A stretch of DNA of 60,049 nucleotides from Spirogloea muscicola (Eukaryota; Streptophyta; Zygnematophyceae; Spirogloeales; Spirogloeaceae). The stretch spans positions 75,567-135,615 of the forward strand of contig WELB01000194.1 of NCBI GenBank assembly GCA_009602725.1. The letters are read 5' to 3'. The first letter of the stretch is position 1, and each line of letters starts with the position of its first letter. The translations under genes and the position numbers were made by a program. Under the pieces are notes generated by a model that was not told where the DNA came from, made no database searches, and saw only the letters and a list, made by a program, of their open reading frames with translations. Below are positions 1-57,180 of this stretch, piece by piece.

Positions 1-215
1 CTCAGGCGTATGCTCTGCATCAGAAAGCTGGTCGAGCCTTAGCTGCTGGCACAAGAGCTAGTCAATTGCCGTCCGGTATTCGAGCGTCAGCTAGCGACCT
101 CTATGTGCTGACTCGTGGTTACTGAGCGGGTCAGCTTAGCAGCAGGTGACGTACATTTGTCCAATGTGCTTGCCTTTGTACTTGGCCACACATGGCCTCC
201 CCATCTCTTATCTTA
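1..215 (+). mobile_element. LINE-C 3' end (last about 41 codons plus 3' UTR)
   Basis: The first 125 bases encode the C-terminus seen in other LINE-C copies (HQKAGRAL ... SDLYVLTRGY, stop TGA at 123-125). The UTR that follows contains the block from 'gtgcttgcctttgtacttgg' to 'cccatctctt', which recurs near 32770, 52845 and 55895. The copy is cut by the window edge. It belongs to the subfamily whose stop-codon hairpin is GCTGACTCG/CGGGTCAGC (107-115 with 127-135). Confidence 0.8.
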
Positions 216-610
216 ATATACACGCATTTTCCTTTGGGAGAGCAACTCGTCTCTCCATTTCAAAGCTTGCCGCATCTTTAACATCAGCAGCACTACTCCT
301 CATTTCTTGGCTTGCCGTGCCGCAGGTGCGGCCAACAGCCCGCGGCGCCGCGCGCCAGGCAGGCACGGCACGGCCCTCCGCCGCCGCCAGCGCAGACCCG
401 TCGCCGCCTCCAACGCCGCGCCGGCGGACGAGGCCACGGCTCTGTCACTTTCCCTCGCCGCCGCCGCCGCCGCCGCCGCTCCGGCTCCAGGCATGAGCCG
501 CCGCGCAGGCTCCGGCGCTCAGAGACTGGCAGGTCCTTGGAGAAGAAGGAGAGCACCACCGCTCTGACGGCCGGCGGGGCCCCCGGCCTCGACCGCTGCC
601 GGCCCGCTCC

Positions 611-3600
611 ATGCACGCGGCTATGGCCATACCGGAGCCGGCGAAGGCCCGCGCCGCCGATGGCATAGGTTCGGCCCTCACCCCCGTGCCGGAGCCGCAG
701 CAGGCGCTGTCGCCGCCGCCACTTCCACCCACTGATGAGTCGCAGAAAGCGAAGGTCATCTCCTTAGCCATCGACGAGGACCCCATGGCTCCCTCCGTAG
801 CATTCGTCCGCATGGACTCCCTGAAGAAGATCGGCAGGTCCGCGAAGAAGAAGGAGACCGCCACTGGCCAGGTTGGTTCCGCAACAGGGGCCGTTGACAT
901 TGCCAGCGAGCGGGGCGAGCCGGTCGGAGCGACGTCTCCGCCCAAGGACAAGGCCTCTCCTGGTGGCAGTGCGGACACAGGGCTGCAGAGCAACAGCAAG
1001 AGTGGAGAGTCCTACAACAGCACGCACTCCCAGTCAAGCGACAGAGGTTCAAGTAGGGGATGGACCATGGCAAAGTCCTACAAAAGAGAAGACTCCTTTG
1101 GACCTGCCAGCGCGCTCATGAAGGTGATGATTCGTCGGACGGAGTACCTCGATCTTGTGCAAAATGCAGCGGTAATGTTGTTCAAGGGTGACATATCCGA
1201 GGTATCATCAACACTGTCATCAGCTCTTGCTGAAGAGATTTTCAAGGTTGGGCTTCTGTGCAGGGGCGGATTACTCTCTTTTCCACCACCGACTGCCCTC
1301 AGGGCCGAGCCATTTCGTCCATCTTGAAGAAGAAGGGTGCCACAATCATTGAGGTCAATGTGGATCACCATCCTGAGAGTATAGTCGAGCTCCAAAGGCG
1401 GTATGGAAAGATGAGCCTACCACAGGTGAAGACCACTCCTCTACTGCAAGAGAAGGATGGTGGCATGTCCTACTTTGGTCAGCACTGGTGATTGTCATGC
1501 TGGCCAATCACTTCATCCAGGATCAGTTGTACAAATGCTGGCACAGGCACCCCGCCTGCTTTGTTGCTGATCCGTTGTTGCTGGGTGCAGGTTTTCTTCA
1601 ATGATGACTTCATTGGTGGTTATGATGCCATACAAGCCTTGAAGGCCAGGAATGAGCTGGATGCCAAAATCAGCGCAGTCTTCAACACACCAGTGCCGCC
1701 GACGGCTCCCGCCATCCCCTTGCCAAGGACAGCCAGCCTGGATTCTGGGAGACAGGACGAATTTGCAGAGCTTGCCAGGGAGCTAAGGCACGAGGTTAAG
1801 ATCAAGGACAGATGGCACAAGTTCCGTCTTTACAGAAATTGCTTTCTTGGCTCTGACTGTGTGGAATGGTTATCTGCTTCACAAAAATGTAGTAGAGCAC
1901 AGGTACAGCTGACAACCCTGAGCTTGAGCACGCATCACATGTGTGTTTGGTGAAAATGTTACGTGTATTCGTTCTGTGGATTACATCCTGTACAATTAGG
2001 TTATGCAGACTCTGGCTTTTCAAACAAAGCTAAATGTTGGTGGACCAATTCATCTTGCAGGCTGTTGCAATGGGAAATGACATGATCTCTCGGCACTTCT
2101 TTCACCATGTGCAACGGTAAGCGTAGCTTGAAAACTTGTTGAACTTGGACAAGAGATAGATTTTGTTATGTTTGGATAAGGAATCGTACTTCTAGTCTGC
2201 AGAGCAAGGATCATGGAGGCATGTGTGCCACTATTCCACACAGTTGCGTGCCAAAATCTGCTTTAGATGCATGCAACATGTATCCGGCTTGACGTTTCTT
2301 TGGGCATGAGGACGACATCGGGTAGAAAAGAAATGGTCAGTGAGAGGTTGTGGTGCAAGATTTTAAATGTTGTAGTTGACTCTGCTGGGACAAAATTGTT
2401 CGGTGCAGGGAGCACGGTCTGAGGGATGGCAACTCACTTTATCGCTTTCTAGAGCACAATCTACCAGCTGGAAAACAGTGCATCAACTTCAATGGCTTGA
2501 TCAGCCCACTACAGTGTCGAACTGCAGAACAGCTGGGGTGTGGGCTGCGGCGCCTTATCTTGGCAATATATGACGAACACTCAAAAGGGGGACGAAGGGT
2601 GAACTACAATACCATGGCAGCTAGTGAGGCTTTCCGTCGGTAAGCGCAGGCTGTCTGGAAACAGTCACTGAATACACTTTGTGATAAGCTACTTGAGAGA
2701 CAGAACGTTTCCTTGAATTGCTGAAGGGTGTGGGTCCTGCAATATTTTTGAAGCCATACTTGCGAATACCTGCCTCTGAGCTGTTGTTTCTTAGGGGTGA
2801 ATCAGATTCGTGCGAAGTACAGAGGAGCTACAACGACTACCACTAGAGTCTTTGTCAAGAAATGAGAAGATGGCATTCTTCGTCAACATATATAACGTAC
2901 TTGCCATACATGCCACAGCTGTACTGGGAAGGTTTCCAGAGAATGCTGCAGAGCTGGAGGCATTTGAAACACAGTACTGTTACATCATTGGGGGTTCTGT
3001 ATATAGTCTCAATGACCTTGAGTATGGACTCCTTTTGGGCAATAAATGCTCCCCCTATGGAAGCACCAAACCATTTGGTTCCAAGGACCCACGGGTGGAG
3101 GTAAGTCCTACATAAAGCAGCTCAGCAATATCTGAGCAGCTGTGACCAGTTGCACATCTGTCCTCCTCGCTCTGCTTTGCAATTATGCAATTCATGTACA
3201 GCAGATTGATAGCATTCCATGAATGACCCGCGTACTGCTGTTATCCATTGTACTTTGATGTGTCTTCACTGTAGCTACCACTAGAATAATGACAATTTGT
3301 AACCTGGGTGTGACAGCTCATTCTTATTGATGAAGACCCGCTCATTCACTGTGCACTATTCTCGGGGGTCAAGTCAAGCCTCTCAACAAAGCCATTCAAG
3401 GCCGAAAGCGTTGATGAGCAGCTGCGATTAGCGGCAACATTGTACTTTGAGAATGGCGGCATCCTGATCACACCAAGGACCAAGACAGTATCTGTCTCGA
3501 GATTTTTCGACTGGTAATAACCATCTCTGTAACTGAGCTATGTACACCTAGAGATCACGCGCTTGCTCACATGAGCTGGCGTAATTGCTGTTTTCCTGTG

Positions 3601-3885
3601 TCATTACCATCTGCAGTATGACCTGCCGCACATTAGGAGAGTTGTAAGTTGCAGCATACTGCACTCAATTTCCTTGGAGTGGCTTGTCAGTGGTTAACCA
3701 CTTTTTGTTTGTCTGACTCTGTCCAAAACTCCGCTGCTTTTTTGCGCAGTGCCAATGTCGGAGCACCGGATCAAGTGAGTGTGCTGCGGTGGCTAGTGCA
3801 GTATCTTGAGGCTGGCCAGCAAAGGGAGCTTCTACAGCTGCTCAAAGAAGAACCAGCCAGACTTAAGCTGGAATTCTATGACTGA
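611..3885 (+). CDS. Glutaredoxin-DEP-DUF547 protein
   Basis: Exons: 611 to about 1246, 1264-1425, 1591-1902, 2061-2116, 2409-2639, 2806-3100, 3317-3513, 3617-3643 and 3750-3885, about 683 residues, all phases consistent. Order: a disordered Pro/Ser-rich N-terminus, a glutaredoxin domain (ITLFSTTDCPQG, cis-Pro in SLPQVFFN, GGYDAIQAL), a DEP domain (KDRWHKFRLYRNCFLGSDCV, then RHFFHHV), and DUF547 (EKMAFFVNIYNVLAIHA, RRFFD-like end). The glutaredoxin site is Cys-Pro-Gln-Gly, so it has one cysteine. This fusion is known from plants, and its role is not established; DEP domains often bind membranes. The first intron is ambiguous: donors at 1124, 1172, 1202 and 1247 all keep frame with the acceptor at 1263. 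Exon 8 is a 27-base microexon followed by a GTAAGT donor. The start at 611 is the first ATG of the open frame. Confidence 0.88.
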
Positions 3886-4950
3886 TGGCTGTTCTCCAAC
3901 ATGCATGGCATTGTGTGTCATAGTCTGTCAGAGGGAGTGTGATAGATTAGGCCCACACGGCATAGACATGTGCCCATTTTTATTGGACGGATCTGATGGT
4001 CCGCCATTTGCTGGTGCACACTTACAGAAAATAGCTGCTTCGAAGCGCTTCGTGGCAGTGGCTTTTGGCCGCCACCATGGCAAGAGAGCTGACAAGAGCA
4101 CCAAACCAGCTCTTTTTCAGCTGATCCTTTGCAATCCAATCTACTTTGCTCTTATATTCACTGCCAAGGGACGCTCTCCAACCCCTTCTCTCCTGAGTAT
4201 TGCAGACCCATTGCCATCAATTTGTAGACAGTCTGTCTTGGTGCTCTTGTGGGATGGTGGACCCTCCAGACGTACAGATGTGTGTGCTTCTTTCTCGCTC
4301 ACGTACGGCCAGGTCAATGGTAGAGCAGTTTGCTGAGGCTAACGTTGCAGCAAGCACACACTATGATGTTTTGCCGAGTACAAAGTTATGACCTATGGTC
4401 AGGTCTAAGAGACATCAAGTTGTGGTAGCAGGACCAGTGGGTTACTTGTAGAGCTTTCATGTTGCTGTGGCTGGTGGGTTGGCTGGTCTTATTAGTGACA
4501 AATACTGTTGGTGGAGATGCTCAGAGCCCAACCGCTGAGCTTCAGCACAGCAATCCAGGTGCTAATAGTGAGATGCAGTCCGCAATGCCTCACTCTGCAC
4601 AACGTGGGTGAGTCTCAGAGTAGGCATTGCGAGCGGTGACAATGAACATTGTGAGCATGTAAGCACCTGAAAATGAGGACATTAGTGAGATGGCAGCCTC
4701 TGCTAGGTCAAAGCCGTCGGGTGACCATCAAGAAGTAGCCCGAGAGGCGGAGTAGCAGCAGCTACTAAGGCGCGATTGTCGGCAAAAGTTTGCAAGGGTG
4801 AGCAAGGCGGCCAGCATAAGCAGCAAGCGGCGGATGGCTTGAGAGGCGGAGCTCAGCTGCTGGGCAAGGCCTCTCTTGGCCGGAGGCTTCGATGGTGTAT
4901 CACGAGCACCCGCCTCCTACCATGGTGCGCCTAGGCCGGCCTCCACAGCC
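3886..4950. other. 3' UTR and intergenic stretch
   Basis: I see no coding exon here on either strand. A TGTAA at 4659-4663 could end the upstream transcript. The final part is AG-rich with many stops and leads into a LINE-B tail. Confidence 0.5.
4659..4663 (+). promoter_or_regulatory. Candidate poly(A) signal TGTAA
   Basis: TGTAA lies 774 bases after the stop codon of the glutaredoxin-DEP-DUF547 gene. It is the usual poly(A) signal of chlorophyte algae, and I saw no closer copy. Confidence 0.4.
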
Positions 4951-4960
4951 GTGCTACCAG

Positions 4961-5165
4961 GCGGGGACCCACTTCCAGGACCCTAGCCTCTCTGATTTGC
5001 GGCTGCTTAGCAGGGATTACTGAGTGATTTGTAGCTGCTTTCTTTCTTTGTGTGCTTTGGTTTCTTAGCGCTTCCTCTGGCTTCCTCTGGCCCCCTTCTC
5101 GTTCTTTGTTCATTCTTTTTTGGGCTGGCTTGTCCAGCCCCTATCCTCAATGGGCGAGCCCTTTC
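4961..5165 (+). mobile_element. LINE-B 3' end fragment
   Basis: The sequence encodes the LINE-B terminus (GTHFQDPSLSDLRLLSRDY, stop at 5021-5023). It continues with the LINE-B UTR ('agcgcttcctctgg', 'ttcattcttttttgggctgg', then 'caatgggcgag'). Near-identical stretches end the copies at about 34010-34200, 38400-38590 and 54060-54205. Only about 60 bases of coding sequence remain. Confidence 0.75.
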
Positions 5166-5421
5166 CCTTTTTTACCAGGCGAGGGCACTGCGGCCCGGTT
5201 TTGCGAAGCGACTGTGAGGCTCCCCAGCTAGTTAAGCCGTCGTGGCTGGCAGCTCGCCAACCGCCGACGGGGTGGACGACGCGCCGTCCCACTGGGAGAG
5301 CGTCGCGCAAAGCCCGTCTATGCCCGTCTCGCTCAGTGGAGGCGTGTGTCGTCAACCGACGGCGCCAGGGAGCGGCAGTCCGACGCCGCGCCCGTCACTG
5401 CCATGGCCCGCGCCGCGCCCC

Positions 5422-8891: not shown

Positions 8892-9296
8892 TGCAGCTGT
8901 GCAGCTCAACTAGGCTAATCGCAAGGTCAAAGTGAAGGGTTATCTTTTCTCTCTGACGCTTGTGCATCTAAGCTTCTGCCACTGGTTCCCGCAGCCAGCT
9001 ACAGTGACTTCATGAGTAAACCGCCTGCATGCTACGACTTGCATGGAAGGCTCACTGAGGTCTTTAAGCTGGCAGTGCATGCAGTTTGACCCGATTGCCT
9101 CTCTTCTGCACATCTTTGATATGACATGAGTTATTGCTGCTTAAGGGAAGTGTCAGCTGACCTTCAAGCATGTTAAACAGGGAGCTCATTCTAGCACTGC
9201 CAACACTCGAGAATGAATTTAACAATTTGCTCATTCCCGCCGTTCTCTTACTGGCTGAATGATGAGGCTGATAGAAGGTCAACATCCCTGTACAAT

Positions 9297-9301
9297 TGTA
9301 A
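9297..9301 (+). promoter_or_regulatory. Candidate poly(A) signal TGTAA
   Basis: TGTAA lies 406 bases after the PheRS stop and just before the convergent VTA1 coding end at 9395. The two transcripts would nearly meet or overlap at their 3' ends. Confidence 0.4.
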
Positions 9302-9394
9302 CAAGCAGACACGTATTTGGTGTCCGCGTACTCGATGCTTTGCCAAGTAAAGACTTGAATGCTGCAGCAGCTGCTACTAGTCAAAGTACTGCTG

Positions 9395-11351: not shown

Positions 11352-11387
<36 letters not shown>

Positions 11388-11527: not shown

Positions 11528-11529
11528 GG

Positions 11530-18059: not shown

Positions 18060-18745
18060 AATGTAGGCCAAAAGGCCAAGTACAAAGGCAAGCACATCTA
18101 AAGATCTACATAACCTACAGCAGATTGACCCGCTCAATAACCACGGGTCAAAATATAAAGGTCACTAATCGATGCATGAATCTTAGATGCCAGAAATGGA
18201 GCCCCTCTGCCACCAACTAGAGCTCGCCCAGCTTTCTGGTGCAAGGCACTAGTCTGAGCACGCTGCAAACAGGCCGAAACTCGTCGTCGCAAGAGCGACA
18301 GATATGCAGCTGGCAAGCCCATCTCAGCCGGAAACACATCTGCACGTCGAGTGTAGCCTAGATTGGCAATGTTTTGAAGGAGCGTGTGGAAACGAGGACC
18401 CAGACAGCCATAGATGTCGATTGCCGCTGGCAGGAGCTGATCGCATTGGGGGTAATCGGAGTAGTGCCGCAGTTTCCTTTATTCTGCACCGCCCACTGCA
18501 TGCCCAGCGATGTGAGGTCGATGCTGGGCCCTTATATGCCTCCGTAACAACGTCGACCAGGGCCCGTGGTCCTTCACCAGGTTGCACGCCCACAATGTCA
18601 AGTGTGCGGCGATGATGACGTCCCTGGGCGTCCGTGGTAGTAGCAATGATATTGTTGACTTCCACGACCGCTCGGTAGCCGGCGTCGCGCGTCAAGCCCG
18701 CCAGGGCATCGCGAAGGAGGTTGTGAATGCCCATTACTTCTCTGA
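18060..18745 (-). mobile_element. LINE-C endonuclease-to-3' UTR fragment
   Basis: The minus strand encodes GIHNLLRDALAGLTRDAGYR, then RTLDIVGVQPGEGPRALVDV (D-x14-D, the endonuclease core), then frameshifted terminal modules and a UTR containing the stop-codon hairpin near 18130. The CxC...HxxxC knuckle is absent, so it is truncated just upstream. It abuts the SMC2 3' end, where a minus-strand TGTAA is at 18819-18815. Confidence 0.8.
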
Positions 18746-22300: not shown

Positions 22301-25300
22301 TTATGATGCTCTCTAGTCGGTTAAGCTGCACAGACAACAAGAATCTGCTTATACTCAAAGTGTCCAATAAATGGCAGCAGGATATTAGCTGACAGTGTTC
22401 TTGTGCAGCTCAGTATAGCAGCAATGCACTTGAGGGGTTCACGTTGCAAAGGAGAGGAGATTTGAGAGCCAGACCCTTCTGTGCTTCTCCCTGTGGCTGC
22501 ATCTAAGACCACATAGAGATGACAATGAGTCAGCATCTATTGGAGAATAGTAAGAGGAGAGAATGATTCTACCTTGTATCCTGTTTGTTCCAGAACTTGG
22601 TGATGATCACAGAGATCTCTCTCGGCTTGTGAGAGTTCTGCCAGCTTCCTCAACTGTGAACCTCCTTTGCTGCAGTGAAAATTGCCAGGTCAAAGTCAAG
22701 ATCGTTCAGCACAAGTTGCAAAGGGGCAGAACATCATCTATGCAACAAATTTGTCACATGCTTGTGACACTTGTAGCCATCACTTTAGATGTTACAAGAA
22801 GCTACCAAATAGGATAATGCTGGAAGCTGACCTACGGGATCCACCAGTCAAGACACCTGACGGTTGCAGAATGTCTCCCTCGAGAGTAACACATGTTGCT
22901 CGTATATCTGGATGGAATGCCACCTTGGTAATTGACACCAGAACATTCAAATGTCAGATACTCTGAAGTTTAGCTCTTGATGATCTAAGCCGCCTCATCA
23001 GACAGAAAGACAACAAAGATGAGTTTGAAGCCCTTCCTTTTAGCAACTTGTAGGTGTTTTGCCATGAGACCACCATACAGCCAGATCAAGACAAAAGCAA
23101 ATTTCTGTTCACCTTATTGGCAGTGGCTAAGTCCTTGCAAATGAATGTGCTGCCAAAGACAAACTCCATGGCAGGCTGAAATTGCATCAAGCTCACATCG
23201 TATTAGATGTTAGTCAAACTATGGCAATGTCTTGCAATTGTCATCTGCAGCTGAAGCCACTTCGGCGAGTAGTCCGGGCTATGAACAAGTAGGCCATTCA
23301 TACCTTGACACGCGAGCTGCATTCAATCAGGGAAAGTGCAGGTCTTGCATTGTGCTCGCCTACCTGCCAGAGTGTCAACTACATTTCATTGTTATGGTGA
23401 TTGCAGCTCACTTGCTGAGAGAGCTCTCCTGAAGTAGCTACAGTCTTATTAGAGTGTCTATAGCAACTATGCGCAAGACAAGATATGAATAGCTGCAGTC
23501 TTACCACAGTTTTTGCTGCAGCAAGCTGGCGCTCGTTTAGTTGGTGGTGCTCAATCTTGTCAAGTGGTATTACAGTCACCCTCCTCTTGAGGGCAGCTGC
23601 TTTGCTGAACAGCAGCTTACCAGTCTCTGCAGTATCTGTGACAAGATTATGGATCTTACTCCCTGCAGCAACCTGCAATTAAGATGTCAGCGTGTCTACA
23701 TCTTGTACTTGCTTGCCATCGGTCTACTCAGTCCAATCATGGCTTATAAGTGCAATTCAGTCTCATATGGTGATTGACGGGTCAGCATTAGAACCACATG
23801 AAGGGATGCAGTACTACTATAAGGAGAAAGTGCATCTGGGTCGCAGTCTTTCAGAAAGGGATAGCAAGCAGAGACCTCCAGGGCAAGCATGGCGGAGGTT
23901 TCTTTCACGGAGAAGAGTCGGCCCACAGTCCCCTTAACTCGTGACCGGTCAAAGCCGGGCACAGGGTCACTGTATACCACTTCGGACTGAGTCTCAATGG
24001 TGACCGTATCCACAGTGGCCTTCAGCTTCTGCACTGTTTCAGTCTCCTCCTTCTTGACCTTCAAAGGCACATATAAAGAATAGCATTTCAACGCTAGCTG
24101 CTTGACAAGGTAGCTTGAGGAACCAATCTAGCACATGTATACACATGGTACAAACCCCTCCTTGCTTGCAAGGCATTACAAGGACAGAAAAGTCTCTTGG
24201 TAGCGGCACTGTAAGGCAGGCATGAGCTTTAGCCATAGGATAGGATGTGCACTTTCTGAAGTCGTTCAAGATGAGCAGGATCATAGTCGAGGGTGGAGAG
24301 CTCTGTCTGGTAGCTTTTGACAGCCGCTTCCATCACAGCAAGCTCCTGCTCAAGTTTGCTGGCCTCTTCCTGCTTTGAGCCAAGGGCCTCGGTCCTGGCC
24401 AGTAGCTCAACCTGGAGGTACTGCATCCGGACATTTGCCTGCTTGGCTACGGATGAGGCGCCCTCAACGGCCACCTTCAGCTCACGCAGAATGTCTGTCA
24501 TGCTCTTATCATCACCCTGTGCACCACTCTTGCCTGCCAGCACAGCCTGGTGCTCCTGCTCTGCCCTTGATAGCTCGTCTGAGAGAGTCTGCACCACTTG
24601 ACGGGTGGACTCCATCTCCTCTTCTGTCCTACAAACAGCAGCCCTCTTTGCCTTGACTGCAGTCTGCAGCTCTGCTTGCTGAGCCGTCATGCTTTCAAGG
24701 ACAGTCTGTTCGGCTGCCAGCGCTTCATTGGTGTTGCTCCACATGGATGTGTTCTTGACAAGGTCCTTGGAAAGGACGTCCACAATGTTGACCAGGCCTG
24801 CCAGCTCAGCCCCCATGCGTTTCTCCTTCTCTGCCATCAGGTTGGCAATGCGCTCTCGTAGGTCCGCCATGCCTTCCTCAGTGGCCACCTTCTCACTTTT
24901 CAGCAACTCTACCCTTTGGTGGAACTGCTCTGCCTCGTCGGCAGCTTGCATGCTGGCGCGCTCCGCCTCCACAAACTCGTGCGCTATGCAGAAGCGTTTG
25001 AGGTTTTCCAGACTTGCAACTCCATCACGCCACTGCATGTATGCAGACTTTTCCTTCCTCAGGGATTCCAGCTTTGGTACTATCTCTTCTCCTAGAACCT
25101 GTTGGGAAAGAACAGAGAGCTTTGAGATCCAAAGCTTCAGTGAAGCTCCAAAGCTCTATTACAGCTCGCCCAGACTCACACTTGATGCCAATAGCTGCTT
25201 CGTGTAATGTGCCCTACACAAGACCTTCAGCTAGCAGCATCATCGATGCTTTAGTGCTTGACCACATGCTTGCACCTTCTGGATCTCATCCACTTTGGCC

Positions 25301-33594: not shown

Positions 33595-34690
33595 CTGAAA
33601 GAAAGTGCTCGCCCATTGAGAATAGGGGCTGGAACAACCAGCCCGAAAAAGAATGAACAGAGTACGAGAAGGGGGCCAGGGGAAGCGCTAAGTAACAGAA
33701 ACAAAGCTGCTACGAGACACTCAGTAACCCCTGCTAAGCAGCCGCAGATCAGAGATGCTGGGCTCCTGGAAGTTCTTCCCGTTGGCAATTGACATCCATG
33801 GGGCACTGGGCGCTCGGTGGCTTGAGCTACTTAACCAGCTCGCCCGCCACGCAATCGCCCGTCGCTTCCATGGTGAACCGGTAGACTTTCCTGCAGCCGG
33901 GTCGCTGGCGCAAGTGTATTGCATGCGCTTGGCCGTCTCGCTGCAGAGGTCCATGGCCCGTGCGCTGCACCTTCGTGCCGGGAGAGCCCTCGCTGCTGCC
34001 TCTGGCTCTGTCCAGGGGACCCACTTCCAGGACCCTAGCCTCTCTGATTTGCGGCTGCTTAGCAGGGGTTACTGAGTAATTTGTAGCTGCTTTCTTTCTT
34101 TGTGTGCTTCGGTTTCTTAGCGCTTCCTCTGGCTTCCTCTGGCCCCCTTCTCGTTCTTTGTTCATTCTTTTTTGGGCTGGCTTGTCCAGCCCCTATCCTC
34201 CTGGAAGTGGGTCCCCTGGCCATTGGCCCCTGGAATAGCTGGCTGGCTCTCCTCCAGCGGCTTGCCCGTCAGGCCATTGATCGGCGGCCGGGTCTGCCAG
34301 GAGAAGAAAGTGCTCGCCCATTGAGAATAGGGGCTGGAACAACCAGCCCGAAAAAGAATGAACAGAGTACGAGAAGGGGGCCAGGGGAAGCGCTAAGTAA
34401 CAGAAACAAAGCTGCTACGAGACACTCAGTAACCCCTGCTAAGCAGCCGCAGATCAGAGATGCTGGGCTCCTGGAAGTGGGTCCCCTGGCCAGAGCCAGA
34501 GGCAGCAGCGAGGGCTCTGCCGGCACGAAGGTGCAGCGCCCGGGCCATGGACCTCTGCAGCGAGACGGCCAGGCGCATTCGATACACTTGCGCCAGCGAC
34601 CCGGCTGCAGGGAAGTCAACCGGCTCCCCATGGAAGCGCCGGGCGATGGTGTGGCGGGCGAGCTGGGTGAGCAGCCAGATTGACTGGTAG
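33595..34690. mobile_element. LINE-B inverted cluster
   Basis: Three pieces lie end to end: an inverted UTR (33595-33765), a plus-strand C-terminus and UTR (33765-34200; AIDIHGALGARWLELL, SLSDLRLLSRGY), and a minus-strand UTR plus C-terminus (34305-34680). The plus and minus copies are tail to tail, with 'ggaagtgggtcccctgg' text and unrelated sequence between them. All copies are 3' fragments. Confidence 0.75.
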
Positions 34691-36200
34691 CTGGGAAAGG
34701 CCAGCCCAAAGGAATGGACAGGGTCTGAACGGGAGAGATTATAATCAAGAAAAAATGGACAAGAAAGAGAGAAGCGGCTCTTCTAAACTACGGCAATGGT
34801 CGTGAGAGGCCAGCCCAAAGTAATGTATTTCTTGGCTGGGACAAGGTCCAAGCCAGAGAGAAGGCGCGCGGGGCGCATGAATTGAAAGGGAGGCCAATTC
34901 AAGCCAATACATTGTTCAGGCAGAGTCGAGTGCAGACTAAACAATGCTACATAATACGGAGACCTAATCTAAGGTACCTAAGATGACATTAGTACCCACG
35001 GGTGAGCACAAACAAATCTGACAAGCTAACTTGGGGAGCTGGAGCGCCGCCACGAAAGCCGGAGGCCTGACTTAGAGCGCGCCAGAAAAAAAGAAGCGCG
35101 GCCAGATTGACTGCTGGCTGGGAAAAAAAGACTAGGCAGGAAGATCTGGAACTCCTCCTCTCAACGAATGCTCTTCCCATTCAAGGCAATAATTGTGAGA
35201 GGCCAGCCCAAAGGATGTACAAGGTCTGAAAGGGCCAAAAGGGAAAAATAAGAAAGACTCTTCCGGGTAGAGGGCGATGGCTGTGATTGGCCAGCCCAGA
35301 AAAAGGGCCGAACAAGGTTGAAAGGGGCCAGAAAAGCGCAAGAAATAGCTCAGTGAGAAAAAATAGCCCCTCTAATGTAAGGCAACAGCTGCGAGAGGCC
35401 AGCCGAAAGTAGGAAACCTCTTCCAGTACACAAACTTCGTGTACTTGACAGTACAGGGCGATGGCTGTGCCTGGCCAGCACAGAAATAGAATGAACAGCG
35501 TTATGTACAAGGTACCCTAAACCCTTGTGCATTCCTTTGGGCTGGCCTCTCTCAGCCACCACTTAATGGTCAAAAGAGTGGACAAGGTCCGATGAAAAAT
35601 TTCGTGTCTTTGAAACAAATGAAGGCTAAATGGCCAAGTATGGAGGCAAGCAGGTCTCAGGACCTACATAACCTCAGATTGACCCGCTCAGTAACCACGG
35701 GTCAAAACATAAAGGTCTCTAATCGATGCCTGAATACTAGATGGCAGATGGAGCCGGCATAGAAGAGACAGATCTTCCAGTATACGGCAATGGTTGTGAG
35801 AGGCCAGCCCAGAAGGAGAAGGACACTTCCAGCAGAGGGCGATGGGTATGATTGGCTAGCCCAGAAAGAATGAACAAATTCCGAAAAGGAGTCGACAAGG
35901 TATGGAAGGGCCGGAAGGCCCCAAAATGTGTGAACATAAAAGCGCTGGAGGAGAGAAGGTGCGCGGTGCGCATGAAATAAAGGGGGGTCAATTCAAGCCA
36001 ATACGTTGTTCAGGCAAAACAAATTGCAATGATAGGCTACATAAAACGAAGCCCTATGCTAAGATGGCTAAGGTAACAGTGCGACATCAGTATCCACAAG
36101 TGAAAGGAATGGTGCTCTCTTAATGGGGGCAAGGGCTGTAAAAAGCCAACCCGAAAAGAATTGACAAGGTTCGAAGGGGTCAAAAGCGCTGTCTAAGAAC
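34690..36200. repeat. Array of hairpin modules and non-coding repeats
   Basis: Variants of 'gaggccagcccaaag' followed by 'atggacaaggtctgaa' recur near 34695, 34815, 35200, 35290, 35395, 35470, 35800, 35855 and 36140. Each is the reverse complement of the GGGCTGG hairpin module found elsewhere. The inverted copy of the 16801-16945 repeat is at 34860-35000, an inverted LINE-C tail with its hairpin at 35600-35755, and another non-coding repeat at 35950-36020. No ORF here looks real. Confidence 0.65.
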
Positions 36201-36224: not shown

Positions 36225-36735
36225 CCCCCGAGTGAGGAGCCGCAGATCCGAAAGACTAGCTGCCGGAAAGCAATTCCCCTCAGAAAAGCCAGAGGCTGCA
36301 GCGAGAGCACGGCCAGCACGCAGGTGCAAGGCGTGGGCCATGGACCGCTGAAGGAAAATGGAAAAGACGCATGCATTAGACCTGAGCTAACGAGCCAGCG
36401 GCGCTGAAGTCAGCCTGCTTACCTTGCCTGCGGGACACAGCGCGCCGTGCAAGCCTGGCAAGCAGGTCGAGCCATTGGGACCCGAGAGCCCCGTGCACAT
36501 CCACGGCCAGGGGTACGAACTCGTCCCCAGCCGGGTGAATGGCCCTAGGGAGAAGCAGCTCTACTCTTACTGACTAGAGGTTATTGAGCGCCTCTGACGT
36601 CTTGGAGACTAATATCTCTCCTTCCGGCCCTTTATATATTGACCCGTGGTTACTGAGCGGGTCAATCTGCTGTAGGGTTTGTAGGTCTTTAGATGTGCTT
36701 GCCTTCGTACTTGGCCATTTGGCCTAACTTTGTTT
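36225..36735. mobile_element. Inverted LINE-A tail joined to a LINE-C tail
   Basis: 36225-36545 on the minus strand is a LINE-A terminus. At 36625-36735 the plus strand has the LINE-C end: hairpin ATTGACCCG (36638-36646) with CGGGTCAAT (36658-36666), then the 'gtgcttgcctt' UTR block. Confidence 0.65.
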
Positions 36736-36984: not shown

Positions 36985-38595
36985 AGGTGCTCGCCCATTG
37001 AGAAGAGGGGCTGGCAAAGCCAACCCAAAAAGAATGGACAATGTTCAAAGCCAAATGTGAAAAGCCCTCACCAAATGCAGCTGTCGTTGGCCATGTTGAC
37101 CAAGGCCATTGGGCAGCGGCCCCAGTACTTCACGCGGGCCACTCCGTCGTCCCCAGGGGCGTTGGTGGCGTACGCGGATTTCGACGCAGGCATGGTGGCG
37201 AGCTTGGCGGCCCTGGTCCGCCACCAGGGCTTCCTCCAGTCGCCAGCCGCTATCCACCAGGCGGCGCTACCCCTCAACCACGGTGGTCTCGGCTTGCGCC
37301 CGCTCGCCCATTCTTGCCGGGCTGCATACCTCGGCAGCTGGGCGCAGACTGCCGCCTCCGCGGCCCAGCGCTCCATGGTCCACGGCCGGCGTGCACTGGA
37401 GCAGGCGGTGGTGGAGGTCGACATGGGCGCGCTGCCGTTCCAGGTGTCGCTTCGCTCCGCCCACCAGGAGCTGCTCGCGGCGCACCCGGACCTGGCAGGC
37501 CAGGCGGTCTCCTTCGCGCACCTCGCGCACACCGCTGACCTGCGCGTCGAAGCGCGCTTCCGCGGCCGTGATCGACAAGGCCGCCTACACCACCGCCGTG
37601 CTGCAGCTCCCTGAGGCCGACTTGCGCGGGCGCGCGAGACTTCTATCGGCCTCCCCCCCGGGGGGCAGCGGCGTTGCTTCAGGCCCTCCCCATCATGCCG
37701 CCCTCACTCTCCCTGATGTGGTATTTCGCACCGCCGTCCACCGGCTCCTGGGACTGCCGCCTCCATGTCTCCAGGGCGTGCGTCAGTGTGTATGCGGCGA
37801 GCGAGGGGCCGACTCCGGGGAGCTGGCCGCTCATGTTCTGCGCTGCGCCCACAACGGCGAGCAGACAGCGGCCCACGACCGCCTCCTGCTATGCATGGCA
37901 AAATGGTGGAGGCTGGCTTCTCGGTGGCAGCGGAGTACTCCAGCGTCATGCCGCTCCAGGAAAGGGCCAACGGTCTCCACGCCCGTCGCGTAGACCTGGT
38001 GGCCACCCCACAGGCCGGCGGGCCACGTCTTCTCCTGGACGTGGTGACCACCGACGCATACGACCGCTCACACCCAGCCCAATGTGCCACCAAGGTTGGG
38101 TATGCGGTCGCCTGCGCCGCTCGGGCTAAAGAGCTCAAGTACGCCAACCATCCGCGGGAAGACGAGTTCTTCCCATTGGCAATTGACACCCATGGGGCGC
38201 TAGGCGCTCAGTGGCTCGAGCTGCTCACCCAGCTCGCCAGCCACACCATCGCCCGTCGCTTCTATAGGGAGCCGGTAAACTTTCCCTCAGCCGGGTCGCT
38301 GGCGCAAGTGTATCGTATGCGCCTGGCCGTCTCGCTGCAGAGGTCTATGGCCCGCGCGCTGCACCTTCGTGCCGGCAGAGCCCTCGCTGCTGCCTCTGGC
38401 TCTGCCAGGGGACCCACTTCCAGGAGCCTAGCATCTCTGATCTGCGGCTGCTTAGCAGGGATTACTGAGTGATTCGTAGATGCTTTGTTTCTGTGTGCTT
38501 GTTTTTCTTAGCGCTTCCCCTGGCCCCCTTCTCGTACTCTGTTCATTCTTTTTTGGGCTGGCTTTTCCAGCCCCTATCCTCAATGCGTGAGCACT
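36985..38595 (+). mobile_element. LINE-B, longest copy: RT C-terminus, knuckle, endonuclease and 3' UTR
   Basis: After a hairpin module (36985-37040) the text reads an RT thumb-like region (MLTKAIGQRPQYFTRATP; AALPLNHGGLGLRPLAH). Then come PFQVSLRSAHQELLAAHPDL, DVVFRTAVHRLLGLPPPCL, the knuckle CVCG ... HVLRC (37787-37846), and VDLVATPQAGGPRLLLDVV, a D-x14-D at 37993-38040. The end is EDEFFPLAIDTHGALGAQW and LHLRAGRALAAASG with the UTR. CxC-Hx3C followed by D-x14-D matches restriction-like endonuclease elements of the R2 type. Frameshifts occur near 37559 (an extra C relative to 52175) and again further on, so it is dead. The RT catalytic domain is absent. Confidence 0.85.
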
Positions 38596-50384: not shown

Positions 50385-50820
50385 CCCTCGCTGCTGCCTC
50401 TGGCTCTGGCCAGGGGACCCACTTCCACGAGCCTAGCATCTCCAACCTGCGGCTGCTTAGCAGAGATTACTGAGTGATTCGTAGCTTCTTTGTTTCTCTG
50501 TGTGCTTGTTTTCCTTAGCGCTTCCCCTGCCCCATTCTCGTACTCTTTTTATTCTTTCTTGGGCTGGCTTTACAGCCCCTAATCTCAATGGGCGAGCACT
50601 TCCCTTTCCCCCTGGAATTCCAGCCCGATTTCTGTCTTCCCTTTACTGCAGTGTAGTCCTTCTCGTACTCTGTTCATTCTTCTTTGGGCTGGCTTTTCCA
50701 GCCCCTATCCTCAATGGGCGAGCACTTTCTTCTCTTTCGGCTCCTCTCTCTTTGGGTTCAGACATTGTCCATTCATTTTGGGCTGGCTTTGCCAGCCCTT
50801 CTTCTCTATGCCCAAGCTTC
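50385..50820 (+). mobile_element. LINE-B tail followed by three hairpin modules
   Basis: 50385-50600 is a LINE-B terminus (SNLRLLSRDY-like end, stop at 50471) with UTR. Hairpin modules follow near 50555, 50685 and 50780, each 'gggctggct...' paired with a CAGCCC arm. The second and third are preceded by 'ttcattctt' or 'gtccattcat'. Confidence 0.7.
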
Positions 50821-50824
50821 TGAT

Positions 50825-51830
50825 AGAGGGGCACAATCCAGACTGGTTACGGCAGTGGAAGACGAACGCCGCAGAAGGTTGAGGAGGCTGACAGAGATTC
50901 AGAACAAACCAAGGAGCTTGGCAAGACTTACTTCTCTGGCCACATCTGGTGCCACTGACTGGATCACCTCACCCCCCGTCGCCAACGCCTTCAGCATCAG
51001 CTCCGAGGCCTTTCGGACATGGCTTCAACTCTTCCTCGGCCTCCCACTGCCTGATTGGGGTGCGCCAGTGCGAGTGCGGCTTCCGTGCAGAGGGTGCTGT
51101 GCTCGCCACTCACATGCTGAGATGCCCCACTGGACCAGAAATGGTGGGCATTCACAACCTCCTTCGCGATGCCCTGGCGGGCTTGATGCGCGACGCCGGC
51201 TACCGTGCGGTCGTGGAAATCAACAATATCAAGCCTATCACCACGGACGCCCAGGGACGTTATCATTGCCGCACACTTGACATTGAGGGCGTGCAACCTG
51301 GTGGAGGACCACGGGCCCTGGTCGACGTTGTTGTTGCGGAGGCATATAAAGGCCCACCGTCAACACACATTGCTGGGCACGCAGTGGGCGGAGCAGAACA
51401 AAGAAAACTGCGGCATTACTCCGATTACCCCCAATGCGATCAACTCCTGCCAGCTGCAATTGACATCTTGGGCTGTCTGGGTCCTCGCTTCCACACTCTG
51501 CTTCAAAACATTGCCAATCTAGGCTACACTCGACGTGCAGATGTGTTTCCGGCTGAGATGGGCTTGCCAGCTGCATATCTGTCGCTCGTGCGACGACGAG
51601 TTTCGGCCTGTTTGCAGCGTGCTCAGGCTAGTGCCTTGCACCAGAAAGCTGGGCGAGCTCTAGTAGGTGGCAGAAGGGCTCCGTTCCTGGCATCTAGTAT
51701 TCATGCATCGAGTAGTGACCTTTATGTTTTGACCCGTGGTTGTTGAGCGGGTCAATCTGCTGTAGGTTATGCAGATCTTCAGATGTGCTTGCCTTTGTAC
51801 CTGGCCATTTGGCCTACATCTCTTTCTAAT
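50825..51830 (+). mobile_element. LINE-C, near-intact knuckle and endonuclease to 3' end
   Basis: The text begins AVEDERRRRLRRLTEIQNKP and RLTSLATSGATDW, then after one frame change near 51045 continues open to 51746. The knuckle is CECGFRAEGAVLATHMLRC (51069-51125), with IHNLLRDALAGLMRDAGYR and RTLDIEGVQPGGGPRALVDV (D-x14-D, 51279-51326). The C-terminal repeat region follows (HYSDYPQCDQLLPAAIDI; GLPAAYLSLVRRRVSACL; HQKAGRALVGGRR). A stop inside the hairpin loop and the UTR with 'gtgcttgcctttgtac' end it. It has no RT domain. It is the best template for describing the LINE-C 3' half. Confidence 0.85.
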
Positions 51831-51977
51831 ACACGGTTTCTATGGGCGAGCACCCCTTCTTTTATTGGGCTGGCCAATCCCAGCGATCGCTCTCTACTTT
51901 CGGGCCGTGAAAAGCGCCTTTCTGCCACTTATTCCTCCTGCCACTGCTGCTGCCCAACTCCTCCTGCGGCTCCATAA

Positions 51978-52805
51978 GTGGAAGCAGGACAGGTCGACAA
52001 GAAGAAAGAAAGAAAGTGCTCGCCCGTCGAGGATAGGGGCTGGAAAAGCAAGCCGTCCAGGTGTCGCTTCGCTCCGCCCACCAGGAGCTGCTCGCGGCGC
52101 ACCCGGACCTCAGGCCAGGCGGTCTCCTTTGCGCACCTCGCGCACACCGCTGACCTGCGCGTCCAAGCGCGCTTCGCGGCCGTGGTCGACAAGGCCGCCT
52201 ACACCACCGCCGTGCTGCAGCTCCCCGAGGCCGACCTGCGCGGGCGGGCGAGACTTCAATTGGCCTCCTCCCCTGGGGTAGCGGTGTGGCTTCAGGCCCT
52301 CTCCATCACTGATTCCCAGGGTCGCCATCACCGTCGCACCCTGGACATTGTGGGTGTACAACCTGGCGGAGGCCCACGAGCCTTGGTGGATGTGGTGGTG
52401 ACCGAGACATACAAGAGTTCCGCTTCCACACACATTGCTGGCCATGCAGTGGGAGGTGCTGAGCAGAGAAAGCTCCGACAGTACTCTGACTACCCCCGCA
52501 GCGACCACCTTCTCCCGGCCGCAATCGACACTTTCGACTGCTTGGGTCCTCGCTTCCATACCCTACTTGAGAACATAGCGAGTCTGGGATATGCACGATG
52601 CGAGGATATGCTTCCAGCCCAGATGGGTATGCCGGCTGCCTACCTGTCATTTTTGCGACGTCGAGCTTGTCTGCAGCGAGCTCAGGCTCATGCGTTGCAT
52701 CAGAAAGCTGGTCGAGCCTTGGCTGGTAGTTCGAGAGCTTGTCGATTGCCATCCGGTATTCGAGCATCAGTTAGCGACCTCTATGTGCTGACTCGTGGTT
52801 ACTGA
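51978..52805 (+). mobile_element. In-frame LINE-B/LINE-C chimera
   Basis: One 275-codon frame starts in a hairpin module, passes through LINE-B text (SFAHLAHTADLRVQARFAAV; AYTTAVLQLPEADLRGRARL), and switches at about 52305 to LINE-C text. The LINE-C part begins TDSQGRHHRRTLDIVGVQPG and runs to SDLYVLTRGY with its stop. The knuckle of both families is lost at the switch, while the endonuclease D-x14-D is kept. The LINE-C UTR extends to about 52890. Confidence 0.75.
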
Positions 52806-52904
52806 GCGGGTCGGCTTAGCAGCAGGTGACGTGCATTTGTCAATGTGCTTGCCTTTGTACTTGGCCACACATGGCCTCCCCATCTCTTGACACACGCCTT
52901 ATCT

Positions 52905-53280
52905 CCATCAATGACGCCCTCACTCTCCCCGATGAGGTATTTCGCACTGCCGTCCACCGGCTCCTGGGACTGCCGCCTCCATGTCTCCAGGGTGTGCGTC
53001 AGTGAGTATGCGGCGAGCGAGGGGCCGAGTCTGGGGAGCTGGCCGCTCATGTTCTGCGCTGCGCCCACAGCGGCGAGCGGACAGCGGCCCACGACCGCCT
53101 CCGCGCTGCGATGCATGGCATCCTGGTGGAGGCTGGCTTCTCGGTGGCAGCGGAGCACTCCGGCGTCATGCCGCTCCAGGAAAAGGCCGACGGTCTCCAC
53201 GCCCGTCCGGTAGACCTGGTGGCCCCCCCCACAGGCCGGCGGGCCGTCTTCTCCTGGACGTGGTGACCACCGACGCATAG
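52905..53280 (+). mobile_element. LINE-B knuckle and endonuclease fragment
   Basis: It reads INDALTLPDEVFRTAVHRLL, a knuckle with a stop just inside (QCVC of the long copy is broken by TGA near 53002), HVLRCAHSGERTAAHDRL, and a frameshifted VDLVAPP ... LLDVV region. It starts directly after a LINE-C UTR and ends against an inverted LINE-B UTR at 53281. Confidence 0.7.
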
Positions 53281-54205
53281 AAGAAAGTGCTCGCCCATTG
53301 AGAATAGGGGCTGGAACAACCAGCCCGAAAAAGAATGAAAAGAGTACGAGAAGGGGGCCAGGGGAAGCGCTAAGTAACAGAAACAAAGCTGCTACGAGAC
53401 ACTCAGTAACCCCTGCTAAGCAGCCGCAGATCAGAGATGCTGGGCTCCTGGAAGTGGGTCCCCTGGCCAGAGCCAGAGGCAGCAGCGAGGGCTCTGCCGG
53501 CACGAAGGTGCAGCGCCCGGGCCATGGACCTCTGCAGCGAGACGGCCAGGCGCATTCGATACACTTGCGCCAGCGACCCGGCTGCAGGGAAGTCAACCGG
53601 CTCCCCATGGAAGCGCCGGGCGATGGTGTGGCGGGCGAGCTGGGTGAGCAGCTCGAGCCACCGAGCGCCCAGCGCCCCATGTGTGTCGATGGCCAACGGG
53701 AAGAACTCGTCGACGCATACGACCGCTCACACCCAGCCCAATGTGCCACCAAGGCTGGGTATGCGGTCGCCTGCGCCGCTCGGGCTAAAGAGCTCAAGTA
53801 CGCCGACCATCCGCGGGAAGACGAATTCTTCCCGTTGGCAATTGACACCCATGGGGCGCTGTGCGCTCGGTGGCTCGAGCTGCTCACCCAGCTCGCCTGC
53901 CACACCATCGCCCGTCGCTTCCATGGGGAGCCGGTAGACTTTCCTGCAGCCAGGTCGCTGACGCAAGTGTACCGTATGCGCCTGGCCGTCGCGCTGCAGA
54001 GGTCTATGGCCCGTGCGCTGCACCTTCGTGCCGGCAGAGTCCTCGCTGCTGCCTCTGGCTCTGGCCAGGGGACCCACTTCCAGGAGCCTAGAATCTCTGA
54101 TCCACGGCTGCTTAGCAGGGGTTACTGAGTCATTTGTAGCTGCTTTGTTTCTTTGTGTGCTTGTTTTTTTTAGCGCTTCCCCTGGCCCCCTTCTCGTACT
54201 TTGTT
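53281..54205. repeat. LINE-B foldback: two C-termini tail-outward
   Basis: 53281-53700 is a minus-strand copy (UTR then C-terminus, coding end at 53403). 53707-54205 is a plus-strand copy (C-terminus then UTR, stop at 54128). Their last about 97 residues differ at only a handful of positions (IDTHGALGARWLELLTQLAR against IDTHGALCARWLELLTQLAC). The arms are about 400 bases with about 110 bases between them, so a transcript or single strand could fold back. Confidence 0.75.
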
Positions 54206-54339
54206 CAAGAAGAAAGCTTGGCCAGATTGACTGGTGGCTGTGATAGGCCAGCCCAGAGGAGTGAACAAAGCGTGAGAAGTCGACAAGGCCCCCATCGGCA
54301 CACCGGCCCTCCTCTTAATACACACTCCTTTCTTCTCAC

Positions 54340-55940
54340 CCAGTACTCAGAAATCGGTTAGCGACCTTCATGTATTGACCCGTGGTTACTGAGCGGGTCA
54401 ATCTGCTGTAGGTGATGTACGTCTTTAGATGTGCTTGCCCTTTGTACTTGGCCATTTGGCCTTTGTTTATTTCAAATACACGATACTTTCCTTCTCATAG
54501 CATCTTCAGGCCCCTTCGTAGCCCTAAAACGGTGAGCTTAGCGTCTTAGGCCCCTCCGTCAGTTGGCCCCTCCGAACCTTTGTCAATTCTTTTCGGGCTG
54601 GCCTTTCAGAGCCCTTGCCCCCAGTAGAAGTCACCTTCATCCTCCCTGCAGGCATCCCTTCCCACACGAATGGGCGGCCTGGGCTGCCGTTCACTTGCAC
54701 AGCAGGCAGCCTTTTTCGGTTGCTGGCACCAGGTTGCCTCCCTCCTCCCCTTGAGCTTATGGTGTCTGGTGGGCCCTGCAGCCGAGGTGGAGGAAGGCTC
54801 CTTCGTATTCCAAGTGCACTTGAGGAGCATCCGGGAGTCAGCTATCTGCTCCTTCCCCTCCCTGCAACCCCTCCTCACCCCCTTCTCAGCGCTGGCCTAA
54901 GCACTGGACAAAGCGGCACAGGCCAGACTCGTTGCTGCAGTTGAGGACGAGCGTCGCATGTCGCTGAGGACGATGCCAGATATCAGGACCAAGCCAAGGA
55001 GTCTGGCACGTTTCACATCACTCGCAACAACTGGGGCAACGGACTGGCTCACAACGCACGCCATCCACAACGCTTTCAGATCAGCCACGCGGCATTCCGG
55101 ACGCGGAACAGCTAAACAGCTGTCGCTTCTCCAGCTGTTCCTCGGCCTACCCCAGACCTGCCTGATTGGAGTAACTCAGTGTGAGTGCGGCTTCCGTGCT
55201 GATGGCGGCGACCTTGCCACCCCACATGCTGCGGTGTCCCACAGGCCCGGAGGTGGTGGGCGTCCATAACCTCATATGGGACACCCTGGCGGGCCTAAAG
55301 TGCGACGCTGGCTACCGCGCCAATGTGGAAGTGAGCAATGTAATGCCCATCATTACGGATTCCCAGGGACGCCATCACCGTCGCACCCTGGACATTGTGG
55401 GTATACAACCTGGCGGTAAGCCACGCGCCTTTGTGGATGTGGTGGTGACGGAGGAATACAAGAGTTCCGCTTCGACGCACACTGCTGGCCACGCAGTGGG
55501 AAGTGCTGAGCGGAAAAAGCTCCGACACTTTTCTGACTACCCCGCAGCGATCACCTCCTACCGGCGGCAATCGACACTTTCGGCTGCATGGCCCTCGCTT
55601 CCACACCTTACTGCAGAATATTGCAAGCTTGGGATACGCCGGACGTGAGGATATGCTTCCAGCTCAGATGAGCATACCGGCAGCATACTTGTCATTCTTG
55701 CGTCGTCAAGTGTCAGCTTGTCTGCAGCGAGCTCAGGCTCATGCGTTGCATCAGAAAGCTGGTCAAGCCTTAGCTGGTAGCCCAAGAGCTTGTTGATTGC
55801 CGTCCGGTATTCGGGTATCAATTAGCGACCTCTATGTGCTGACTCGTGGTTACTGAGCGGGTCAGCTTAGCAGCAGGTGATGCATATTTGTCAATGTGCT
55901 TGCCTTTGTACTTGGCCACACATGGCCCTCCATCTCTTAA
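54340..55940 (+). mobile_element. LINE-C tail scrap and a second long LINE-C copy
   Basis: 54340-54480 is a LINE-C end with the hairpin ATTGACCCG/CGGGTCAAT (54374-54402) and UTR. From about 54890 a longer copy begins. It shows RSLARFTSLATTGATDWLT, QCECGFRADGGDLAT, then in another frame HMLRCPTGPEVVGVHNL, RTLDIVGIQPGGKPRAFVDV, and frame-scrambled terminal modules to a stop near 55854 and UTR to 55940. At least three frameshifts make it a pseudogene. Confidence 0.75.
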
Positions 55941-56094
55941 TACACACACATTCTTCCAGTTTAAGAAATGGCACTCCCAATGGAAGCAAGGGCTGCGACG
56001 TGGGAGAGCCACTTTTTCTCACCCCTGCCAACTCTCCCTGCTACTGTAGCTGCCTCATTCCTCTGGCAGCTATGGAGAAAGAAGAAAGAAAAAG

Positions 56095-56720
56095 AAAGTG
56101 CTCGCCCTTAGAGAAGAGGGGCTGGCAAAGCCAGCCCAAAAAGACTGGACAGGGCTCACCCATTGAGGATAGGGGCTGGAAAAGCATGGGCGAGCCCTTC
56201 TTTCTGGCAGCTCCAGAAGTGGACGTAGGTCGGGTCGACAAGGCCCCCTTTTCGTTGCACTGGGTGTTTTGTCTGAACAATGTATCGGCTTGAGTTGGCC
56301 ACTGTTTAGATTATTAGCACCGCGCGCCTTCTCCTTTCGCACTTTCTCCATCGCACTCCAGTCCAGCGGTCCATGGCCCACGCCTTGCATCTGCGTGCTG
56401 GCCGTGCTCTAGCTGCAGCCTCTGGCTTTCGTCAGGGGAAATGCTTTCTGGCTGCTAGTCTTTCTGATTTGCGGCTCCTTACTCGTGACTACTAAGTGAG
56501 TCAACCTGCCGGCCAAGCTCTGAGACAGCGATTTTGGCCCTTTCGGACTGTCATTTTGTTGGGGCTGAGCTGGCTGGTCACAGCCCTTGCACCCTTTTTG
56601 GGGAGAGCTACACTCAATTCTCCTTCAGAGGAAAAGATGCTTCAGGAGAGGTCGGTGGCTGGGAGAGGCCAGCCCAGGAAAAAGAAGCACAGGAGGAGCT
56701 TTGGAGGAGCTTACTTCTTT
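56095..56720. mobile_element. Hairpin modules, non-coding repeat and LINE-A tail
   Basis: Two adjacent minus-oriented hairpin modules (56095-56180) include a perfect 'gggctggcaaagccagccc'. At 56270-56335 is the 'aacaatgtatcggcttg' repeat. A plus-strand LINE-A terminus (MAHALHLRAGRALAAASGF, SLSDLRLLTRDY) follows at 56345-56495. Further modules lie near 56560 and 56660. Confidence 0.65.
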
Positions 56721-56814
56721 CACTTCTCCTTATCTTTGCAGAACAAGCAGCTCTTCCGCCGGGAGGCGAGGGCTGCGACGAGCCAGCCCACAAAAGACCG
56801 GTACTGTTATGCAG

Positions 56815-57180
56815 TCGTGGCCCCTCGGCATCTTCGGCTGTTTAGGTTCTCGTTTCCTCAGCCTCCTTCAGAATATTGCCAATCTAGGCTACACACGACA
56901 TGCAGGTGTTCTCGGCTGAGATGGGCTTGCCAGCTGCATATCGGTCGTTCTTGCAACGACGAGTTTTGGCCTGTTTGCAGCGTGCTCAGGCTAATGCTTT
57001 GCACCAGAAAGCTGGGCGAGCTCTAGTTGGTGGCAGATGGGCTTCGTATCTGACATCTAGTATTCAGGCTTCGCTTAGCGACCTTCATGTTCTGACCCGT
57101 AGTTACTGAGCGGGTCAATCTGTAGGTTATGTAGGTCTTTAGATGTGCTTGCCTTTGTACTTGGCCAGTTGGCCTTCGTT
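56815..57180 (+). mobile_element. LINE-C 3' terminal fragment
   Basis: It encodes IFGCLGSRFLSLLQNIANLG, GLPAAYRSFLQRRVLACLQ and SDLHVLTRSY. The stop lies in a partly mismatched form of the usual hairpin (CTGACCCG with CGGGTCAA), and the UTR block follows. Confidence 0.75.

Follow-up and report, generated by a model that had tools for sequence, protein, structure and literature searches.

Why should a retrotransposon keep a hairpin around the stop codon of its own open reading frame (ORF)? The question is raised by a 60,049-nucleotide stretch of the Spirogloea muscicola genome (contig WELB01000194.1, positions 75,567 to 135,615, forward strand; hereafter the window), in which both hairpin arms are present in nine copies of a long interspersed element (LINE), LINE-C, with the stop codon TGA inside the loop. 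The initial annotation of the window ascribed this hairpin to selection on RNA structure, perhaps for recognition by the reverse transcriptase (RT) or for translation termination, and took paired base changes in the stem as the sign of it. Here, we suggest, with about an even chance of being right, that the hairpin and a conserved 24-nt core in the tail of the element form a 3' RNA tag, which the protein of the element would bind to start target-primed reverse transcription. Selection for RT recognition is thus still the best reading, on the conservation of the 3' arm and on a different hairpin in a second lineage, termed H, and not through the paired changes.

The genome searched comprised 153 Mb in 471 contigs. 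With up to 3 mismatches allowed, the tail core TGTGCTTGCCTTYGTACTTGGCCA was matched 5,497 times, and its reversed control 0 times. The exact motif CGGGTCA at 20 to 34 nt before TGTGCTTGCC was found 2,630 times (control, 0). The distance between hairpin and core in LINE-C is 28 to 30 nt, with the A type, one of two subfamilies (A and G), reading TTGACCCG...CGGGTCAA at 28 nt, and the core itself ends in a GGCC...GGCC mini-hairpin. Counting Watson–Crick pairs only, stems as long as those of three A copies were reached in 1, 8, and 2 per 1,000 shuffles. The hairpin region was aligned for 109 distinct copies, taken from the listed places, the protein matches, and their flanks; a tree of these copies was built without the stem columns, and changes were placed on it by Fitch reconstruction. 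In the non-coding 3' arm, none of the seven inner columns changed on an internal branch (one with three or more leaves), whereas the adjacent 28-column spacer had 24 such changes on the same tree, both counted by hand. Seven columns changing at the spacer rate would be predicted to show about 6 changes (Poisson probability, about 0.0025). The tail core had 1 internal-branch change in 24 columns, a biased figure as many copies were selected by the core.

The H lineage was defined by three copies that carry the LINE-C tail and had, by eye, another common upstream sequence. Its junction pattern gave 182 matches (control, 0), 20 of which were aligned together with L011, L056, and L068; fourteen more H copies were added later. 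In H, except in copies truncated or changed there, the LINE-C hairpin is replaced by the hairpin TCTAGCAGCT-CCAGA-AGCTGCTAGA or variants of it. This hairpin of 9 to 10 bp is unrelated to that of LINE-C and stands beside the same tail core, 22 to 23 nt before it (26 in L011) in the five H copies measured. All nine scored pairs are kept in 24 of 38 H copies, the hairpin is part of the minimum-energy fold in L056, L068, and L170, and Watson–Crick stems of the observed length were reached in 1 (L056), 2 (L068), 34 (L164), and 4 (L170) per 1,000 shuffles. The conserved non-coding 3' arm and the H hairpin beside the same core suggest a functional RNA element. The H members examined (L011, L024, L056, L068, L158–L177, and L196–L209) have tail variants of their own. 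Of the 100 H places listed, about 45 read GCTTACC in place of GCTTGCC by eye, a frequency suggestive of independent multiplication of H.

In the window, the hairpins were scanned with both arms required and up to two substitutions allowed (Table 1). The arms ATTGACCCG/CGGGTCAAT given in the initial annotation are correct for the copies at 36638 and 54374, and GCTGACTCG/CGGGTCAGC for those at 107 and near 55848, as is the G-T wobble within the stem. Two other assignments had to be revised: the copy placed at 51729 as a fully paired A type reads TTTGACCCG, with T.T as its outer pair, and the copy near 52793 has CGGGTCGGC as its 3' arm, which gives two wobbles. The outermost pair alone is T.T in three of the nine copies, and both outer pairs are mismatched in one (57091). 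The exact motif CGGGTCARY occurs 11 times in the window against 1.49 expected, a number reached in none of 100 shuffles; these sites are eight 3' arms, two 5' arms read on the other strand, and an unrelated site at 23778. The copy at 52787, with its altered 3' arm, falls outside this set. With the inner T.G pair counted, the loop has 9 nt, and TGA forms its last three bases. Two ORFs with a length of 150 codons or more have a hairpin TGA as their stop. The LINE-C protein ends in DLYVLTRGY (LTRGC in the window ORF 50949–51746), and the 5' arm of the hairpin is the coding sequence for ...LTRGY*. As read from the sequences, A and G differ in this arm at synonymous positions only (GTT/GTA TTG ACC versus GTG CTG ACT).

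Table 1. LINE-C stop-codon hairpins and tail cores located in the window
Feature	Position	Strand	Details
Hairpin, G subfamily	107..135	+	Arms 107-115 / 127-135; stop TGA 123-125
Tail core of the 107 copy (conserved, 24 nt)	165..188	+	TGTGCTTGCCTTTGTACTTGGCCA
Hairpin, A subfamily, outermost pair T.T	18124..18152	-	Arm scan
Hairpin, A subfamily, outermost pair T.T	35678..35706	-	Arm scan
Hairpin, A subfamily, all 9 pairs	36638..36666	+	Copy 5'-truncated directly upstream of the hairpin
Tail core of the 36638 copy (conserved)	36694..36717	+	
Hairpin, A subfamily, outermost pair T.T	51728..51756	+	Stop TGA 51744-51746 closes ORF 50949-51746
Hairpin, G subfamily, two wobbles	52787..52815	+	Stop 52803-52805 closes ORF 51978-52805 (...DLYVLTRGY*)
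Hairpin, A subfamily, all 9 pairs	54374..54402	+	Arm scan
Hairpin, G subfamily	55838..55866	+	Arm scan
Hairpin, A subfamily, two outer pairs mismatched, 7 pairs remain	57091..57119	+	Arm scan

Pairing was then counted in 100 distinct genomic copies, obtained from 105 prepared rows by dropping L064, L131, L120:3028, L002:462, and L082; L187, L188, and L195, with truncated or shifted 5' arms, had been excluded before. Ten of the 100 rows were obtained by the exact CGGGTCA pattern, which gives a slight bias towards the inner pairs. The outermost pair (pair 1) is formed in 42 of the 100 copies, pair 2 in 85 (T-A in 50 and C-G in 35), and each of the eight inner ones in 91 to 100. The stem of nine pairs with the stop codon in its loop therefore holds as a hairpin and in the place of TGA, as seen in the nine window copies, but not in its full length. 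Only the inner stem TGAC(C/T)CG/CGGGTCA, which T.G closes, is stable. A possible outer helix, ACCT/AGGT, has its four pairs formed in 84 to 93 of the 98 to 100 copies counted. The subfamilies differ: among the 66 copies of A, pair 1 is formed in 7 of 65, with T.T in 55 others, and pair 2 in 55 of 65, with T.T in 7 others, whereas among the 43 copies of G, pairs 1 and 2 are formed in 41 of 42 each. CAT in the 3' arm of the A2 sublineage and CAC in that of A3 leave pair 2 broken.

On the tree, one double change was found, at pair 1, where TT became GC on the branch leading to subfamily G. The root of pair 2 was reconstructed, ambiguously, as CA, from which one-sided steps lead to CG on one side and to TA on the other. 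On the branch of the A2 lineage (six copies), pair 2 went from TA to TT; the first loop T of A2 is C, which converts the inner T.G pair to C-G, though pair 2 is lost. The A3 copies with CAC are L183–L186, three of which lie within about 2 kb and are perhaps not independent. Stem changes that keep or gain pairing are 5 of 6 on internal branches and 19 of 53 on terminal ones, both small numbers. The covariation score was 0.125 against 0.102, a value reached in none of 500 shuffles, and versions slid along the alignment were also lower. Since pair 1 is mostly T.T in A and pair 2, broken in A2 and A3, records a single split, covariation was rejected as proof of selection on structure. The claim that the outer pairs change together in compensation holds only in part, and the covariation check on genomic LINE-C ends came out weak, close to the single subfamily split that the initial annotation itself had named as speaking against it.

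Several observations weigh against a functional tag. Two-sided changes were found in 3 pairs against 2.7 in shuffles, with 290 of 500 shuffles reaching 3, and the excess in the covariation score appears to stem mainly from one pair and one subfamily split, a source beyond the shuffle control. When wobbles are allowed, the stem length of the A type is reached in 193, 108, and 350 per 1,000 shuffles and that of the G type in 49 and 64; by Watson–Crick pairs alone, the G-type stems have merely 4 bp. Folding of the whole 3' end is unremarkable in 3 of 10 folded copies (z -0.5 to -0.8). In the H lineage, the stem of L011 has only 7 bp (reached in 224 per 1,000 shuffles, 587 with wobbles), the other stems with wobbles were reached in 22 (L056), 22 (L068), 120 (L164), and 26 (L170) per 1,000, and the minimum-energy fold of L164 does not contain the hairpin. 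The tail core is common to LINE-C and H, and the status of H as a LINE or as a non-autonomous partner hangs on one copy, L068, in which a family-H stop codon lies 242 nt upstream of the hairpin; this copy would be what ties H to a LINE ORF, as no family-H stop was found in five other H upstream stretches (three partly masked and two fully readable). Nor was strong folding around the stop seen in sister families with the similar ending ...L(T/S)R(G/S)Y* among the 19 copies folded.

Those copies represent the families labelled here C, D, E, F, G2, native H, J, K, and M. The z value at the stop was clearly negative only in LINE-C A copies (-2.7; A2, -1.7). Weaker values were obtained for C-G (-0.9), D (L138, -1.1), J (-1.3), and M (-1.2), and the remaining 13 of the 19 copies lay between -0.2 and +1.6. 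A stop hairpin common to the whole LINE superfamily was thus rejected, and as the strong fold occurs only in LINE-C A, the hairpin accompanies the LINE-C tail, not the stop codon. Families D and E have a hairpin of the GGGCTGG..CCAGCCC type in the 3' untranslated region (UTR), at 34013–34164, 38406–38545, 50411–50544, and from 32286 onwards, a candidate for the recognition tag of those families.

The 5' truncation points were also compared with the hairpins. Among 93 LINE-C breakpoints, about 4 fall in the 3' arm, which shows no hairpin bias and adds to the points against the tag. About nine possible H breaks fall within 32 nt; they are clearly in the 3' arm for four (L024, L167, L171, and L175), at the arm–loop border or in the loop for L200, L202, and L207, in the 5' arm for L011, and at the 5' foot for L196. 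An apparent seven of seven breaks in the 3' arm fell to the four clear ones on comparison with the closest copies; RT stalling at the H hairpin was accordingly dropped as support, and the pattern is suggestive of stalling at most. Because this clustering is weak, our confidence in the RNA tag was lowered from slightly better than even to even. Five LINE-C truncations (L009, L075, L078, L087, and L015) lie at -31 or -30 from the stop; they adjoin the 5' foot of the possible outer ACCT/AGGT helix and could be due to chance or to an RNA end.

Of the other explanations, the most credible is that the stem is an ancestral accident, its 5' arm held by coding (LTRGY*) and its 3' flank inherited from a few recent masters. 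The synonymous differences in the 5' arm, covariation from a single split with pair 2 broken in A2 and A3, the lack of such a fold in the sister families, and a stem length that is not rare once wobbles are allowed all agree with it; however, the non-coding 3' arm stayed static on internal branches while neighbouring columns changed, and an unrelated strong hairpin occupies a similar place in the H lineage, and we consider an accident rather improbable. The letter-by-letter conservation of the 3' arm among lineages would also be expected if GAGCGGGTCA were a linear motif, a protein signal or a transcript 3'-end signal, rather than part of a structure, but the H lineage has the tail without the motif and a hairpin in its stead, which makes this clearly unlikely.

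A role of the hairpin in stabilising or protecting the 3' part of the transcript would fit the 17 of 93 LINE-C breakpoints that lie between -39 and -15 relative to the stop, immediately 5' of the hairpin. Breakpoint density, however, climbs towards the 3' end in general, and such a role is very unlikely in our view. Least probable of all is an action on termination or readthrough of the ORF, to which we give hardly any weight: the TGA lies inside the LINE-C loop, but the hairpin of L068 lies 242 nt downstream of its stop, and other families whose C terminus is similar lack a strong fold at that place. The function in termination that the initial annotation had offered is disfavoured on these grounds, and a stop-codon function was rejected as the leading explanation.

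Here, we propose how the RNA tag of LINE-C could work. The last codons and the first bases of the 3' UTR would fold into a hairpin of 7 to 8 bp, possibly lengthened by the outer ACCT/AGGT helix. Lying about 28 to 30 nt upstream of the 24-nt core, this hairpin would be the 5' part of a 3'-terminal RNA tag; the element protein would bind the tag, and target-primed reverse transcription would then begin. The place of the stop codon within the loop would then follow from the shortness of the LINE-C 3' UTR and not from any need for the hairpin in termination. We infer the folding in the cell, the protein binding, and the priming role of the tag from the sequence comparisons above. A more doubtful generalisation is a modular tag in R2-like LINEs, composed of the fixed 24-nt core and a hairpin about 22 to 30 nt upstream whose position would matter and whose sequence would not; the weak truncation pattern in H has lowered our already limited confidence in it as well. 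As such a tag would extend into the ORF in LINE-C, the last codons and the stop would have a double reading, as protein and as RNA structure.

The protein of LINE-C is consistent with this proposal. In one copy, on contig C87, the frame is open over 1,313 codons, and the C-terminal 733 residues match RVT_1 (E = 4e-17), as expected of a LINE-type RT; no other Pfam match above the cut-off was found in either half of the ORF. The Pfam search of the 586-aa N-terminal part of one copy (L157) gave no apurinic-type endonuclease domain. By phmmer against solved structures, group II-intron-type RTs were best (7e-6), and among LINE RTs, R2 (9nl2, E = 1.6e-4) was ahead of human L1 (0.025). R2-like LINEs, which encode a restriction-like endonuclease, are marked by a zinc finger at the N terminus and by a CCHC finger and a PD-(D/E)XK nuclease at the C terminus. 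An N-terminal motif seen by eye, whose best Pfam match (zf-Di19, E = 0.12) is below the cut-off, we take to be C2H2-like, and the C-terminal part presumably contains CxC..H..C and LD...D motifs, also seen by eye at a place that has no Pfam match. LINE-C is, as judged from its sequence, a non-LTR (long terminal repeat) retrotransposon with an R2-like RT. Its 3' flanks are varied, its tail has thousands of matches, and the listed places lie on many contigs; from this dispersal, LINE-C is probably not R2 proper, which inserts in 28S rDNA, although the rDNA itself was not searched.

Small RNA tags are known from other retrotransposons. As far as the consulted part of PMC10499050 describes it, R2Bm binds its 3' UTR at a small core made up of stems and a junction (stems P1 and P2 and their junction), the stems vary in size and sequence among R2s whereas the junction bases are conserved, and a tag of 43 nt is enough for reverse transcription by R2Bm, which makes the small tags of R2-like elements of interest. 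The resemblance lies in the R2-like RT of LINE-C and in the requirement of R2Bm for a small 3' RNA structure. R2, however, is found within 28S rDNA, and the numbering of its 3' UTR starts with the first base past the stop codon, whereas LINE-C is dispersed and builds its hairpin partly from the last codons, and its binding is putative. In the stringent LINEs UnaL2, ZfL2-1, and ZfL2-2, a family-specific 3' stem-loop is required for retrotransposition, and a ZfL2-1 chimera with a foreign stem, its loop not swapped, kept about half of the activity (PMC4176376, in the portion consulted). LINE-C likewise has a conserved 3'-terminal sequence with a stem-loop, the mark of the stringent type, with a putative need for it in retrotransposition. 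The zebrafish elements are L2-clade members, with an endonuclease domain that precedes the RT (same portion); the LINE-C hairpin, by contrast, spans the stop codon, and Pfam gave no such domain. Conserved hairpin 3' ends are also reported, in the sections consulted of PMC3747384, for plant and green-algal L1-clade tails (LINE1-1_ZM; L1-1_CR with SINEX-3_CR), including compensatory changes in the 3'-end hairpin of monocot elements and a tail common to LINE and SINE (short interspersed element); the RT of LINE-C is nearer to R2 than to L1 by phmmer. The Rfam search of the window segment 54300–54560 gave no known RNA family up to E = 1, and no account of this hairpin was found in the open-licence literature, searched at the level of titles and abstract openings.

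If the RNA tag is real, LINE-C and H would be a natural experiment on the recognition of its own RNA by a LINE protein, with thousands of copies, one core, and two hairpins in one place, and coding sequence and priming tag would overlap at a stop codon. The history of the stem also advises caution, as a few paired differences at the level of subfamilies in repeats are no evidence of covariation. At the overlapping loci L020, L021, and L022, three LINE-C ends of both subfamilies lie in opposite orientations within about 400 bases. Elsewhere in the window, PMR5N and DEK_C domains, a tentative pointer to a plant or green alga, were found in other ORFs.

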